Part shown: positions 38,218 through 42,417 of the stretch, in pieces | Position numbering within the stretch: position 1 is the first letter of the stretch | Layout of the letters: each line of letters opens with the position of its first letter | Source of the DNA: Bacteroidetes bacterium 24-39-8 | GTDB taxonomy: Bacteria > Bacteroidota > Bacteroidia > Chitinophagales > Chitinophagaceae | Assembly (NCBI GenBank): GCA_002256765.1 | Contig: NCHJ01000010.1 | Coordinates: 1 to 42,417, forward strand | DNA length: 42,417 nt | Direction of reading: 5' to 3' | The notes under the pieces: generated by a model | What the model saw: the letters and a program-made list of their open reading frames with translations, nothing else | Database searches by the model: none | What the model was told of the DNA's origin: nothing | Translations under genes and position numbers: made by a program

Positions 38218-39600
38218 TTGTCTTCAAAATTTATTGGTTGGGATGATACTATTGTGGCACTAGCTACACCCCCAGGATTGGGTGCCATTGGCGTGATAAG
38301 AATCAGCGGTAAACAAGCTTTTCCTGTGATCAATAGTTTGTTCCCATCAAAGGATTTGGAAACTCAAGCCTCTCACACTTTACACGTTGGTTATTTGAAA
38401 GAGGCTGACAATGCTTTGGATGAAGTTGTCTTGTCCTTGTTCAAAGGTCCTAAATCTTATACTGGAGAAGACACTATTGAAATTAGTACACATGGATCGC
38501 CTTATATTATTGAAAAAGTAATTCAGGCCATTAATGCCAGAGGTGTGCGAATGGCCAAGCCAGGAGAATTTACGCAGCGTGCTTTTCTAAATGGCAAACT
38601 TGATTTGGCTCAAGCTGAATCGGTGGCGGATTTGATTGCCAGTAATACAGAAGCCAGTAGAAGAACCGCGCTGAACAATATGCGAGGTGGATTTTCATCG
38701 GCCTTGCACCAATTGCGAGAAGAATTAGTCAAGTTCTCTGCACTCATAGAATTGGAATTGGATTTTTCTCAGGAAGACGTGGCATTTGCCGATAGGGATC
38801 AGCTAGTAAGACTTATTCAATTATTGAGTAGTTCTACTAACCAACTCTTGGAATCTTTTCAATTGGGTAATGCCATTAAGAACGGTGTTCAAGTTGCCAT
38901 TATTGGTAAACCCAATGCGGGTAAATCAACATTGTTAAATACACTACTAAATGAGAATAGAGCCATTGTTAGTGAATTAGCAGGTACTACACGCGATACA
39001 ATTGAAGAGGTATTAAATATTGAAGGAATTCTCTTTAGATTAATTGATACTGCTGGTATTAGAGAACATAGTACCGATAGTATTGAGACCATAGGAATAG
39101 AAAAGAGTTTTGAGAAAATGCGCGCTGCTGATTTGGTCTTATACTTGTTTGATCAAAATGATCTTTCCATTGATGAGCTTAAAGAAATGGTTGCCGTATT
39201 TGAAAAAGAACAAATCAAATACTTACTCATTGCCAATAAGTCTGACGCGGCAGAACCCGCTTCTGTAGCAGCTTTTAGCCAAGTGCCCGACATTATTTTT
39301 ATCTCTGCAAAACAGCGCCAAGGCATTGATGCACTCAAAAAAGCGCTGGTTTCTAAAGCCGTGCACGGCCATTTAAATACAGAAGCAACAGTGGTAACCA
39401 ACGCACGCCACTACGATGCGCTCAAGCAATTAGCGGCTTCACTACATGATGTAGCTGAAGGGTTGGACATGCATATTACTGGAGATTTGCTAGCCCTAGA
39501 CATTCGTCAATGTTTGCACTATCTTGGTTTAATCACAGGTGAGATTACCAATGAAGACCAGTTAGATTTTATTTTTTCAAAGTTCTGTATTGGAAAGTAA
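38218..39600 (+). CDS. mnmE: tRNA uridine-5-carboxymethylaminomethyl modification GTPase MnmE
   Basis: GTPase that, with MnmG, modifies the wobble uridine of several tRNAs. 460 residues. The N-terminal tetrahydrofolate-binding domain (DDTIVALATPPGLGAIGVIRISG, about 9-31, cited in part) is followed by a helical domain with an inserted G domain (P loop GKPNAGKST, DTAGI, NKSD). The protein ends in the family's essential FCIGK. Start: a TTG at 38218; an in-frame stop at 38188-38190 and the absence of any ATG near the N-terminus leave no better choice. The last 18 bp form the likely integration site of the element that follows. Confidence 0.96.
   Translation: MSSKFIGWDDTIVALATPPGLGAIGVIRISGKQAFPVINSLFPSKDLETQASHTLHVGYLKEADNALDEVVLSLFKGPKSYTGEDTIEISTHGSPYIIEKVIQAINARGVRMAKPGEFTQRAFLNGKLDLAQAESVADLIASNTEASRRTALNNMRGGFSSALHQLREELVKFSALIELELDFSQEDVAFADRDQLVRLIQLLSSSTNQLLESFQLGNAIKNGVQVAIIGKPNAGKSTLLNTLLNENRAIVSELAGTTRDTIEEVLNIEGILFRLIDTAGIREHSTDSIETIGIEKSFEKMRAADLVLYLFDQNDLSIDELKEMVAVFEKEQIKYLLIANKSDAAEPASVAAFSQVPDIIFISAKQRQGIDALKKALVSKAVHGHLNTEATVVTNARHYDALKQLAASLHDVAEGLDMHITGDLLALDIRQCLHYLGLITGEITNEDQLDFIFSKFCIGK
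39583..39600 (+). other. Candidate attachment site at the 3' end of mnmE
   Basis: The last 18 bp of mnmE (TTCTGTATTGGAAAGTAA) resemble, from memory, the 18-bp attachment site used by SGI1-type islands at the 3' end of trmE/thdF (the same gene) in enterobacteria. A tyrosine recombinase gene follows 0.6 kb downstream. The similarity partly reflects the conserved FCIGK codons, and the second copy of the site would lie beyond the window, so this is a proposal. Confidence 0.4.
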
Positions 39601-39666: not shown

Positions 39667-39739
39667 TTGTTGCCCAAATGTACTTTTTAGCCTATATTTG
39701 TTGCCTAGTTGTTGCCCTTCAACATACTATTTGTTGCCC
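39667..39739 (+). repeat. Four phased direct repeats TTGTTGCC(C/T)
   Basis: Copies at 39667-39675, 39698-39706, 39709-39717 and 39731-39739, all in the same direction; start-to-start distances are 31, 11 and 22 bp, close to 3, 1 and 2 turns of DNA. They lie between mnmE and the recombinase operon and overlap a predicted promoter. They are candidate arm-type recombinase sites or operators. Confidence 0.75.
39670..39700 (+). promoter_or_regulatory. Predicted promoter of the recombinase operon
   Basis: TTG at 39670-39672, a 20-nt spacer and TATATTTG at 39693-39700 fit the Bacteroidota promoter pattern. The TTG lies in repeat copy 1, the -7 overlaps copy 2, and copies 3 and 4 cover the expected start and early leader. 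A second exact -7, TATTTTTG (39662-39669), overlaps copy 1. Binding to the repeats would therefore block transcription. Confidence 0.5.
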
Positions 39740-39756
39740 GACAACAGTACAGAGAG

Positions 39757-39771
39757 AGGATGTCACATCCT
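39757..39771. repeat. Inverted repeat in the leader of the HTH gene
   Basis: AGGATGT (39757-39763), one base, then ACATCCT (39765-39771), a perfect 7-bp palindrome 48 bp before the HTH gene start. It is followed by two direct copies of TAGTCAC starting 10 bp apart (39790 and 39800). It looks like a binding site for a small dimeric regulator. Confidence 0.5.
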
Positions 39772-39818
39772 GTCTTTAATTGACACAAGTAGTCACTCTT
39801 AGTCACAAGCATGCATCC

Positions 39819-40175
39819 ATGAGCAGTAACATTCAAATAAATAAAACCTGTTTCTTTTGCGGCAACTCATTTACCGCCCTTACCCTGCATACCCGGTATT
39901 GCTCACATACCTGCAATCAGAAACACTACAAGCAAATAAAGAGAGAGGAAAAACTTAATCAGTACCAGGTTAAGGAAAAAGTGGGATCTGCTAACAGCAT
40001 AGTTTCATCTGGTTTAGAGCTGAAGGTTTTCCTAAGCATTGATGAAACTGCCACTCTTTTAGGTGCCAGTCGTCGCACTATCCAAAGGCTTATTTCCAAA
40101 GGTTCCCTTAAGGTAGGTAAGGTAGGAAGCAGAAGCATTATTCAACGTACTGAAATAGATAAAATGTTTAAATAG
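39819..40175 (+). CDS. Zinc-finger and excisionase-type helix-turn-helix protein
   Basis: 118 residues in two parts. The N-terminal CFFCGNSF...RYCSHTC has C11, C14, C28 and C32 (C-x2-C-x13-C-x3-C), a probable zinc-binding finger, followed by a basic linker. The C-terminal part (about 70-118, FLSIDETATLLGASRRTIQR, then LISKGSLKVGKVGSRS) is a MerR/excisionase-like winged HTH (HTH_17 type). This suggests a recombination-directionality factor or regulator of the recombinase 7 bp downstream. The start at 39819 (ATG) is preferred to the TTG at 39780. Confidence 0.8.
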   Translation: MSSNIQINKTCFFCGNSFTALTLHTRYCSHTCNQKHYKQIKREEKLNQYQVKEKVGSANSIVSSGLELKVFLSIDETATLLGASRRTIQRLISKGSLKVGKVGSRSIIQRTEIDKMFK

Positions 40176-40182
40176 CTATTAT

Positions 40183-41286
40183 ATGAATGTCAAACTTAGG
40201 CAACGATTAAAAGGTGATAAAATCAGTTTGTATCTGGACATATATACCAGCGGAAAAAGAGAATACGAATATCTTAATTTATACCTGGTACCAGAACCGG
40301 AAAAGGGTAAACTAACAAAAGAACAGAGAGATGAAAATCGCAAAACATTTGTGTTAGCTGATGGTATACGATCAAAACGTTTTCTTGAAATGATGAATGG
40401 TACCTATGGCTTCCGGGACCGTGAAAAAGCAAAAGGTAGCTTTTTAAGGTTTGTTGAATACCTGATACAAAAGCGCAATACAAGTAAAGGCAATTACGAT
40501 AATTGGGATAGCATGTTTAAGCACCTAAAAAAATATGTGAAGACTGATGTTACTTTTAACCAGATTAATAAGCAGTGGCTTGAAGGATTTAAAGATTACT
40601 TACATGTAGCTAAAACTCCTGCAGATAAATTGCTGTCACAAAACTCACAATTGGCATACTATAGTAAACTATGTGCTGCCCTAAAGCAGGCATATAGAGA
40701 TGGCATTATTCAAAAAAACCCGGCGGAGGTTGTGGCAGGATTAAAGGCAGGAGAAACAGAGAGATCATTTCTTACTTATGATGAATTGCAGGCAATGTTT
40801 AAAGCAGATTGTGATTTTCCTATACTTAAACAAGCCTTTATTTTTTCAGCATTATCCGGTTTACGTTGGTCCGATGTAGAAAAGCTCACCTGGGTGGAAG
40901 TACAGCATTCAAAAGAGATGGGTTATTATATTCGTTTTAGGCAAAAGAAAACAAAGGACACTGAAACTCTTCCAATATCAGATCAGGCATATCAGTTATT
41001 AGGTGAACGTCGTAATTTGGAAGATCAGGTATTTGAGGGATTGAAGTATAGTGCCTGGCACAATTTGAAATTACAACAATGGGCTATGAGAGCAGGCATA
41101 ACAAAGCATATAACTTTTCATTCAGCCCGACACAGCTTTGCAACCTTGCAACTGACATTAGGAACTGATATTTATACAGTGTCAAAAATGCTTGGTCACA
41201 AGAATTTAAAAACTACGCAAGTATATGCAAAGGTGATAGATCAAAAGAAACAGGAGGCTGCTAATAAAATAAAACTTGAATTATGA
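40183..41286 (+). CDS. Tyrosine recombinase (integrase) with SAM-like domain
   Basis: Site-specific recombinase, 367 aa. An N-terminal arm-binding-like domain (about 1-70) is followed by a SAM-like core-binding domain (about 80-180), then the catalytic domain with R228 (SGLRWSD), the K255/K256 region (QKKTKDT), H313 and R316 (FHSARHSF), H339 (LGHKNLKTT) and nucleophile Y348 (QVYAK). All catalytic residues are present, so it should be active. It belongs to the large Bacteroidota group of element integrases. The downstream gene overlaps its stop codon (ATGA). Confidence 0.93.
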   Translation: MNVKLRQRLKGDKISLYLDIYTSGKREYEYLNLYLVPEPEKGKLTKEQRDENRKTFVLADGIRSKRFLEMMNGTYGFRDREKAKGSFLRFVEYLIQKRNTSKGNYDNWDSMFKHLKKYVKTDVTFNQINKQWLEGFKDYLHVAKTPADKLLSQNSQLAYYSKLCAALKQAYRDGIIQKNPAEVVAGLKAGETERSFLTYDELQAMFKADCDFPILKQAFIFSALSGLRWSDVEKLTWVEVQHSKEMGYYIRFRQKKTKDTETLPISDQAYQLLGERRNLEDQVFEGLKYSAWHNLKLQQWAMRAGITKHITFHSARHSFATLQLTLGTDIYTVSKMLGHKNLKTTQVYAKVIDQKKQEAANKIKLEL

Positions 41287-42417
41287 TAAGAGGTTCCATT
41301 CGCAGATATTATGACGGGGAAAATGATTTTGAAGATCTAATAAAGCTTATCGAAACGGCTAATGTAACATTTCAACGAGTGCAGAAAAAGGGAACCGAAA
41401 AAAGTCCTGAGTACAATGATGAAATTCAATTTAACTACACAAAGGGGTTGGCAGATTATCGCAGTCATTTGTATAAAAGGGTAGATGGCATCAAGTCCGA
41501 ATTTACTAACGAAGTAATCTCTCAATCATCTCGATTTGAGAAATTGGTTTTTATATCTTCTAAGGTAGCAGAGTTACAAAGAGCAATAAATAACCTGAGC
41601 CAATCAGCAACAGGATTTTCACACAGTTCCTTTACCTTTTCAAATCTATCTGCTGAGGAAGGGGTTAGGGTATCATTAACTGAAGCAGACATACAGGAGT
41701 ATTATGAAGTGATGAAAAAATATTCTGATCAGGCGATGGATCACATCAAAATTCTCGAAGCTTCTGTACAGAATTCTTCTAATGATGACTTTCCGCAATT
41801 AAAACCAGTAGCACCGGATCCCAATGAGCCATCTAATTCAAAGCCTTTAGCTTTCTTTGATTACTTCTACGCTTCTCGTGGTTTTACAAGATTTCACAAC
41901 AACTTTTATCCGAATTCTGATGAAGATTATTACAACGTAGCTTCAATTGATAAAGACAAGGAGGTAGTCACTTACGAAGAATATAATCCAGAAGACGGTG
42001 AACCTTACACATACACACGAGAGTTTAAGCAAGAGTTATTGGATAAAGTATATTCTGAGTTTTTAAAGGCTAAAAAGTTTATTGATGCTCAAGTAAATTC
42101 GTTAGATAGTGAAGCAAGTATCAACCTCTTTTTAAAATTGTTACTCTATCAATTACGGCATCTTCATAATGCTTTAGAAAAATATCCTGAAGCAACAAAA
42201 TATGACACCAATCATTATGTGTTAAAGGCATTTGTTCGTTTTATTTTTGATAAATATGAGCCATTTGTTGAAAATCATAAAGAGGTCAATTATTTTAAAA
42301 AAATTCTTAACCCCAATGCTGAGCCTCAGCCAAACATCGTTCCATCTCCCGTCACACAAAGAATGCTTCCCCACAAGGAAGTTGTGATGGCATTTAAATG
42401 GGTGGCAAATCCAGCAG
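41283..42417 (+). CDS. Unidentified element gene coupled to the recombinase (partial)
   Basis: An open frame of 378 codons starts with an ATG overlapping the recombinase stop (ATGA at 41283-41286) and runs off the window. The protein is soluble, charged and probably mostly helical: a helical first 160 residues, an acidic Pro/Asn-rich linker (about 163-188) and an aromatic patch (FFDYFYASRGFTRFH, 191-205). A second helical part follows (about 245-345), then a proline-rich joint and KEVVMAFKW near the edge. I do not recognise it. The final Phe-Lys-Trp recalls the start of the C-terminal module of RteC-like Bacteroidota element proteins, but the evidence is thin. Likely an element-borne regulatory or accessory gene. 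Confidence 0.75.
   Translation, partial: MIRGSIRRYYDGENDFEDLIKLIETANVTFQRVQKKGTEKSPEYNDEIQFNYTKGLADYRSHLYKRVDGIKSEFTNEVISQSSRFEKLVFISSKVAELQRAINNLSQSATGFSHSSFTFSNLSAEEGVRVSLTEADIQEYYEVMKKYSDQAMDHIKILEASVQNSSNDDFPQLKPVAPDPNEPSNSKPLAFFDYFYASRGFTRFHNNFYPNSDEDYYNVASIDKDKEVVTYEEYNPEDGEPYTYTREFKQELLDKVYSEFLKAKKFIDAQVNSLDSEASINLFLKLLLYQLRHLHNALEKYPEATKYDTNHYVLKAFVRFIFDKYEPFVENHKEVNYFKKILNPNAEPQPNIVPSPVTQRMLPHKEVVMAFKWVANPA

Follow-up and report, generated by a model that had tools for sequence, protein, structure and literature searches.

Organization of the locus

The DNA analysed here (the window) is an entire contig, C79, of 42,417 bp from a fragmented assembly (212 contigs, 86% complete). It contains the host gene mnmE (trmE) at 38218–39600, on the + strand like the other genes and sites of the locus. 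The gene product matches TrmE_N, MnmE_helical and MMR_HSR1 and ends in ...IFSKFCIGK*; its start codon at 38218 was assigned mechanically from the ORF. The left copy of an att core, TTCTGTATTGGAAAGTAA, occupies the final 18 bp of the gene (39583–39600) and restores the mnmE 3′ end. The gene order 3′ of mnmE comprises four copies of a repeat, TTGTTGCC, followed by the gene of an HTH_17 protein, a tyrosine integrase gene and a third gene that is cut by the contig end, 1.1 kb past the integrase.

The HTH protein (39819–40175) is a member of the excisionase family and a putative recombination directionality factor (RDF), with an N-terminal CxxC...CxxxC motif. It matches HTH_17 (5.6e-10), TIGR01764 excise (1.3e-9, above the cut-off) and phrog_66, described as excisionase and transcriptional regulator (5.1e-7), in profile scans that began at 39822, one codon inside the ORF. 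The third gene (41283–42416, 5′ part) gave no match above the cut-off in the family profile searches of the window; the gene at the equivalent position in a relative, G064, matches DUF6617.

The integrase (40183–41286) contains an arm-binding, a core-binding and a catalytic domain (Arm-DNA-bind_5, Phage_int_SAM_5 and Phage_integrase, respectively). Residues R228, K256, H313, R316, H339 and Y348 are invariant among 33 integrase sequences, and are presumed to fill the R-K-H-R-H and Y catalytic roles. An AlphaFold model built from the 33 sequences, which supersedes a poor model from 5 sequences (pLDDT 50), shows strands at residues 2–10, 13–22 and 25–35 and a helix at 46–75, together forming an N-terminal three-stranded sheet plus helix. 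The top Foldseek match of this model is lambda Int (1z1b), with a TM-score of only 0.34, so that the whole-chain superposition is poor. In its domains (Pfam matches above the cut-offs, and the model) and its catalytic residues the protein has the characteristics of an arm-binding (AB) tyrosine recombinase.

The repeat array and its conservation

A previous sequence-only reading of this DNA had described four helically phased repeats with spacings of 31, 11 and 22 bp, and the coordinates, copies and spacings proved exact. TTGTTGCC occurs as four perfect copies on the + strand, at 39667–39674 (copy 1), 39698–39705 (copy 2), 39709–39716 (copy 3) and 39731–39738 (copy 4). Among 8-mers composed of three or more different letters, it is the only one in the window with four non-overlapping copies whose starts fall within 64 bp of each other. 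Allowing one mismatch, TTGTTGCC is found 54 times over the whole window against 55 expected; the single motif is not enriched, and the signal therefore lies in its clustering. In the assembly of origin the pattern TTGTTGCC-N(1-30)-TTGTTGCC matches at the array locus only, with three overlapping matches, compared to 0 for the control.

The array is shared by related elements. A protein search of 200 relatives returned four integrases of the same genus, 67–69% identical, all encoded behind mnmE with an identical core and a four-slot array, in which copy 2 (G061) or copies 3 and 4 (G011) have decayed. A pattern search for the array over 394 genomes of the family gave 26 matching genomes, with 3 for the reversed-pattern control. 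The array lies 82–83 bp past a core in 17 of the 26, and in 16 of these 17 it follows mnmE with the identical core; the other nine were set aside as chance matches, having 2–3 mismatches and no core. An independent scan of named genomes, which used two peptide patterns from the integrase arm domain and is thus biased toward a conserved arm domain, yielded 57 loci, 54 of them with the mnmE C-terminus upstream. Record titles of sequences with the array include Chitinophagaceae, Cyclobacteriaceae, Flavobacteriaceae, Saprospiraceae, Bacteroidales and others. The absence of the repeats beside related integrases, which the sequence-only reading had named as evidence against itself, was looked for and not encountered: the array is kept across the Bacteroidota.

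The 70 loci obtained represent 55 distinct regions, of which 47 are integrase-derived. Since the pattern search itself fixes the spacing, spacings were counted in the integrase-derived loci only. Exact or one-mismatch copies fill slot 1, 81–84 bp past the core, in 43 of the 47 regions, slot 2 in 42, slot 3 in 41 and slot 4 in 38. The distance between copies 1 and 2 is 31 bp in 37 of the 40 regions having both, and that between copies 2 and 3 is 11 bp in all 38. Copy 4 varies in placement, starting 13 bp (24 regions), 20 bp (13) or 22 bp (1) from copy 3, with none or no score in the remaining 9. At 10.5 bp per turn the phases of copies 1 to 4 in the window are 0, −17, 0 and +34 degrees; the 20 bp and 22 bp forms of copy 4 stay within 34 degrees (−34 for the former), and the 13 bp form is at +86 degrees. 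The proposal that all copies lie on one face of the helix thus holds for this window, and as a conserved rule for copies 1–3, not for copy 4.

Chance, or low-complexity T-rich repeats, might be thought to account for the array, as its flanks are T-rich and a cruder test in which T runs were not excluded gave some 8-mer at least four times between 39601 and 39822 in 28 of 5000 local shuffles. This reading is refuted by the phylum-wide conservation at a set spacing and a set distance to the core; in addition, none of 150 dinucleotide shuffles of the window produced a comparable cluster. Its probability is negligible, and the TTGTTGCC repeats are real.

The more distant loci differ. L163 and L171 (46 and 43% integrase identity) have no TTGTTGCC at the usual place; related repeats, of the TTTGTTGCT/TTTGTTGCC type, stand at a greater distance from the core, and no HTH gene is seen in their short leader between core and integrase. 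In L173 (32% identity) no TTGTTGCC was found. Many relatives have inverted copies, GGCAACA, between copy 4 and the HTH start codon, possibly extra arm sites, which are absent from the leader in the window. In L062 (G453:C2), close to the end of a contig, the core in front of the left end and its array has no mnmE before it; this may be a tandem or secondary site.

Attachment core and element ends

The element is integrated in the last codons of mnmE, and its target corresponds to that of SGI1-type elements, the last 18 bp of trmE/mnmE. The core pattern is present in 53 of the 57 integrase loci, with none by pattern in L135, L149, L152 and L173, although TGTTGCC copies are present in the first three.

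The four same-genus elements each have a second core at a distance of 28–32 kb, and immediately internal to it stand two repeats with a spacing of 11 bp. Right ends of the form (A/T)TGTTG(G/C/T)C-N3-(A/T)TGTTGCC, with repeats 11 bp apart before a core copy, are found in 16 of the 19 genomes searched, ten of them on the contig and strand of the left array at 20.6–37.5 kb. The distance from the pair to the core is 58–59 bp in 15 genomes and 80 bp in one (G305); G474, G432 and G489 gave no candidate. The candidates were hand-picked from pattern matches, and only pairs adjoining a core were counted, because the pattern also matches by chance at many other places and the reversed control gave matches as well. 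The repeats consequently flank both ends of these elements, a layout that fits what arm-type sites require and that a plain operator would not predict. In the relatives they lie on either side of the core; of the element in the window, the left side alone is known. A search of the fragmented assembly of origin did not reveal the right end of this element, and one for a second core returned the own site plus 13 other matches with 2–3 mismatches. The sole match with 2 mismatches, L002, is located inside unrelated coding sequence and was rejected; the others were scanned for TTGTTGCC only.

Genome G017, in which an integrase search at E 1e-40 gave no match, has the mnmE core followed within ∼6 bp by DNA resembling a right flank, 76% identical, from flank base 76 onwards, to the sequence past the G061 right core. 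Judged by these sequences, mnmE of G017 is an empty site. Beyond the right core of several other elements, remnants that look like element left ends were noticed by eye (L107, L085 and L109; G315, G386 and G259), which suggests repeated insertion at one site. The sequence past the right core in G315, G386 and G259 holds such remnants only, with neither a full array nor an HTH gene.

The constant distance to the att core and the matching copies at the other element end bear out the proposed tie between the repeats and a recombination site. The interpretation that best fits the sequence context of the four TTGTTGCC repeats is that they are the left-hand arm-type sites of the integrase.

The HTH protein and the 10-bp ladder

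The leader of the HTH gene contains a ladder of five 10-bp units, GTCACATCCT, GTCTTTAATT, GACACAAGTA, GTCACTCTTA and GTCACAAGCA, at 39762–39811, with 7 bp between it and the HTH start codon; the ladder is a predicted site for an HTH/excisionase-like protein. A small hairpin, AGGATGTCACATCCT (39757–39771), listed as terminator-like, overlaps the first unit. The lag-10 identity of the window leader is 0.48, a value reached by 1 of 500 shuffles. Over 42 distinct leaders the mean identity is 0.555, 0.557 and 0.544 at lags 10, 20 and 30, respectively; no other lag between 3 and 29 exceeds 0.356. Taken singly, 40 of the 42 leaders are matched by at most 4 of 500 shuffles and L154 by 14; in L148 the ladder is lost (499 of 500).

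The HTH gene finder was positive in 60 of the 70 loci. Among the ten negative loci, L052 and L164 have an HTH gene with a ladder, L062 and L076 are cut off, and inspection revealed no HTH gene in L051, L055, L057, L141, L163 and L171. L051, L055, L057 and L141 keep the TTGTTGCC array before the integrase start, with L055 and L057 sharing one array region as near-copies. L051 (G474:C9) has its array at mnmE and an integrase-like start, but no integrase frame of at least 70 aa before the contig end. No ladder hexamers are visible in these four loci. Their best-window lag-10 identities are 0.48–0.50 (L051, L055 and L057) and 0.36 (L141), and in loci with an HTH gene the lowest value is 0.42 and the median 0.60; the values overlap, so that this measure alone separates the loci uncleanly.

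These loci bear on the suggestion of the sequence-only reading that the HTH factor might bind the repeats, which found no support. The array is present in loci without the HTH gene and is unchanged over three types of HTH protein, which indicates that the HTH protein is probably not the TTGTTGCC binder. By the same token it is very improbable that the repeats are merely operators for the HTH protein, serving operon control and unrelated to recombination. Such operators would explain why the repeats overlie the operon promoter (see below) and would suit an operon whose first product is a DNA-binding protein. They would not account for the recurrence of the motif at the right end, beside the core and far from the promoter, nor for its persistence in the four loci lacking the HTH gene and its constancy over three recognition-helix types while the ladder changes.

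The ladder itself follows the HTH protein. In all 42 distinct HTH proteins with a ladder the unit type matches the recognition helix: GWCACA units accompany the helix RRTI(Q/H) (n=6), GCWACA units RWT(I/L/V)(Y/N) (n=23), and GCACCA units (type C, which also holds GCWACA units) RWTIQ (n=13). L052 and L164 agree as well, by eye. The ladder types were defined post hoc, after the data had been seen. On an HTH tree that leaves the helix out of account, each trait undergoes two changes, the minimum possible; the independent events are thus few, and group C is weakly supported. With two changes and a ladder that abuts the HTH gene, linkage alone could explain the co-variation. On the integrase tree (43 sequences, quick search, with the short integrases L165, L166 and L168 excluded) the HTH type changes six times, which implies that HTH gene and ladder move between integrases, in keeping with a linked cassette, while TTGTTGCC stays.

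A bolder generalization, that the mnmE islands of Bacteroidota combine one arm code, TTGTTGCC, with exchangeable excisionase cassettes of HTH gene plus ladder in at least three specificities, is speculative and on balance unlikely. As part of this cassette reading, the code would be read at two helix positions, RR specifying GWCACA, W..Y GCWACA and W..Q GCACCA. Islands may accumulate at one site, and if this reading is true, each could use its ladder code to govern its own operon and excision and leave its neighbours untouched; because only left-end remnants follow the right cores, this insulation of neighbours has no direct support.

Behind the integrase, 40 of 57 loci encode another, second HTH_17 protein; L141, where the first HTH gene is missing, is one of them. 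The recognition helix of this second protein contains SHLYK or SHMYK in 38 of the 40, across all three ladder types (type A represented by L137 and L140 only), a constancy that speaks for the first HTH protein as the partner of the ladder. The second protein also opens an alternative, in which it would be the true excisionase in the relatives and the operon's own HTH protein would act purely as an autorepressor. The absence of a lag-10 ladder signal at the right ends (15 sequences) would permit this division of labour. It is at odds with the match to TIGR01764 excise above the cut-off and with the tandem one-turn direct repeats in att, which, according to PMC7498355, are the usual pattern of RDF sites. 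We regard the alternative as a real possibility, if clearly the less probable one. The locus combines a small HTH protein with tandem direct repeats of one helical turn in att, as is characteristic of an RDF, and by sequence the HTH protein is most likely the ladder binder, excisionase and second repressor.

Promoter overlap and proposed mechanism

As sequence, the operon promoter consists of a TTG at 39670–39672, a 20 bp spacer and a −7 box, TATATTTG, at 39693–39700, overlapping copy 2. The TTG, which is the second TTG of copy 1, we take to be the −33 element. The −7 box spans −12 to −5 according to PMC9723704, which places the predicted start near 39705, with copies 3 and 4 just downstream. 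Of 53 distinct regions (L163 and L171 excluded), 51 have TA at the −7 position at copy 2 and 44 have TAnnTTTG; at the equivalent place of the other copies TA occurs in 2 of 53 (copy 1), 1 of 53 (copy 3) and 1 of 49 (copy 4). Among 12 mismatched slot-2 copies (L163 and L171 aside), five keep TAnnTTTG and seven lose the TTTG (TATATTCG or TATxTTAG). The TTTG half is common to the repeat and enjoys no extra protection, so that the case for the promoter rests on the TA half. A sigma-70 style scan was uninformative (1 match, 1.4 expected). The conserved box, with a TA specific to copy 2, agrees with the earlier claim that the repeats are laid over the promoter, and an overlap between the array and the promoter of the HTH–integrase operon is supported.

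With the −33 element in copy 1 and the −7 box on copy 2, the promoter lies within the array, and bound integrase should exclude RNA polymerase. By analogy with KplE1, the integrase probably represses its own operon. The overlap might instead merely save space, with the TTGTTGCC copies serving as arm-type sites and the promoter controlled by the HTH protein on the ladder. The ladder, placed roughly between +58 and +107 relative to the predicted start, would suit a roadblock. Moreover, in KplE1 (PMC2951348), single arm-site mutations other than P′1 left repression intact, and P′1 was inseparable from the −10. Against this stands the TA by which 51 of 53 regions have their −7 box within copy 2, a position at which integrase and polymerase should be mutually exclusive. 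Control through the ladder alone thus seems rather unlikely.

We consider it likely that the TTGTTGCC copies are arm-type sites in attL for the integrase whose gene lies 0.5 kb further on, that the integrase is self-limiting and that the HTH protein acts from the ladder as excisionase and repressor. The N-terminal domain of the integrase would hold the four left TTGTTGCC sites and the two at the far end, and its catalytic domain would act at the core, so that attL/attR integration and excision complexes can form. Integrase on copies 1–3 would block the promoter and thereby cap its own supply, and the HTH protein, bound to the ladder in its own leader, would function as excisionase and further repressor. 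Integrase binding, repression and the role of the excisionase are what we infer from an architecture that is itself conserved across the loci.

Implications

The attL control region described here is, by its sequence, real and well conserved, and of a kind already known; what is new is the Bacteroidota arrangement, the ladder and the correspondence between helix and ladder. It allows arm-type sites, core, promoter and excisionase sites of widespread Bacteroidota integrative elements to be predicted from sequence alone, and the match of helix to ladder provides HTH_17 excisionases with a naturally occurring specificity code. One relative, the G064 element (L034:7299–18253 and L035:63–9614), carries a BREX-like set (BrxC, PglX and PglZ) together with a prokaryotic Argonaute, and also a McrBC-type pair (found by Pfam only, without a PADLOC match) and a large DEAD/UvrD helicase. 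This mnmE island is likely a mobile defence island, and the excision switch therefore bears on the movement of defence genes.

Comparison with known systems

Among the papers listed in literature searches, whose coverage leaves out most subscription papers on CTnDOT, none deals, by its title or the opening of its abstract, with these Bacteroidota mnmE elements or with TTGTTGCC as an integrase site. The best phage and plasmid proteins, among the matches listed, are less than 50% identical to the window integrase. The integrase resembles the IntCTnDOT subgroup (CTnDOT, NBU1 and SGI1), a likeness that concerns domain content, with an arm-binding domain, and the Bacteroidota as host phylum only; the CTnDOT integrase binds sub-terminal arm sites (PMC8138268). 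SGI1 likewise uses the last 18 bp of trmE (thdF), has imperfect direct repeats at both ends and encodes Int and Xis (PMC3285670). The SGI1 elements differ in being resistance islands of Gammaproteobacteria that are mobilised by plasmids of the IncA and IncC groups.

The ladder resembles the sites of Apl of phage 186 and of lambda Xis, which according to PMC7498355 have several 6-bp operators, as direct repeats 10–11 bp apart in att, and an RDF doubling as repressor. The same text describes repression of the integrase promoter near att by the RDF of P4 and of KplE1. The ladder differs from the Apl and Xis sites in its exact 10-bp period, its three unit types and its position adjoining the gene of the putative binder. 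A parallel in layout is the intS/TorI module of the KplE1 prophage in E. coli, for which repression by the integrase and by the RDF has been measured; there, as reported in PMC2951348, attL overlaps the integrase promoter, an arm-type site lies on the −10 and RDF sites are situated in attL. The element in the window likewise has, by sequence, its promoter inside the attL arm region. It differs from KplE1 in belonging to another phylum, in having a promoter of the −7/−33 type, in targeting mnmE rather than a tRNA gene, and in placing the putative RDF gene first in the integrase operon, with the ladder downstream of the promoter.
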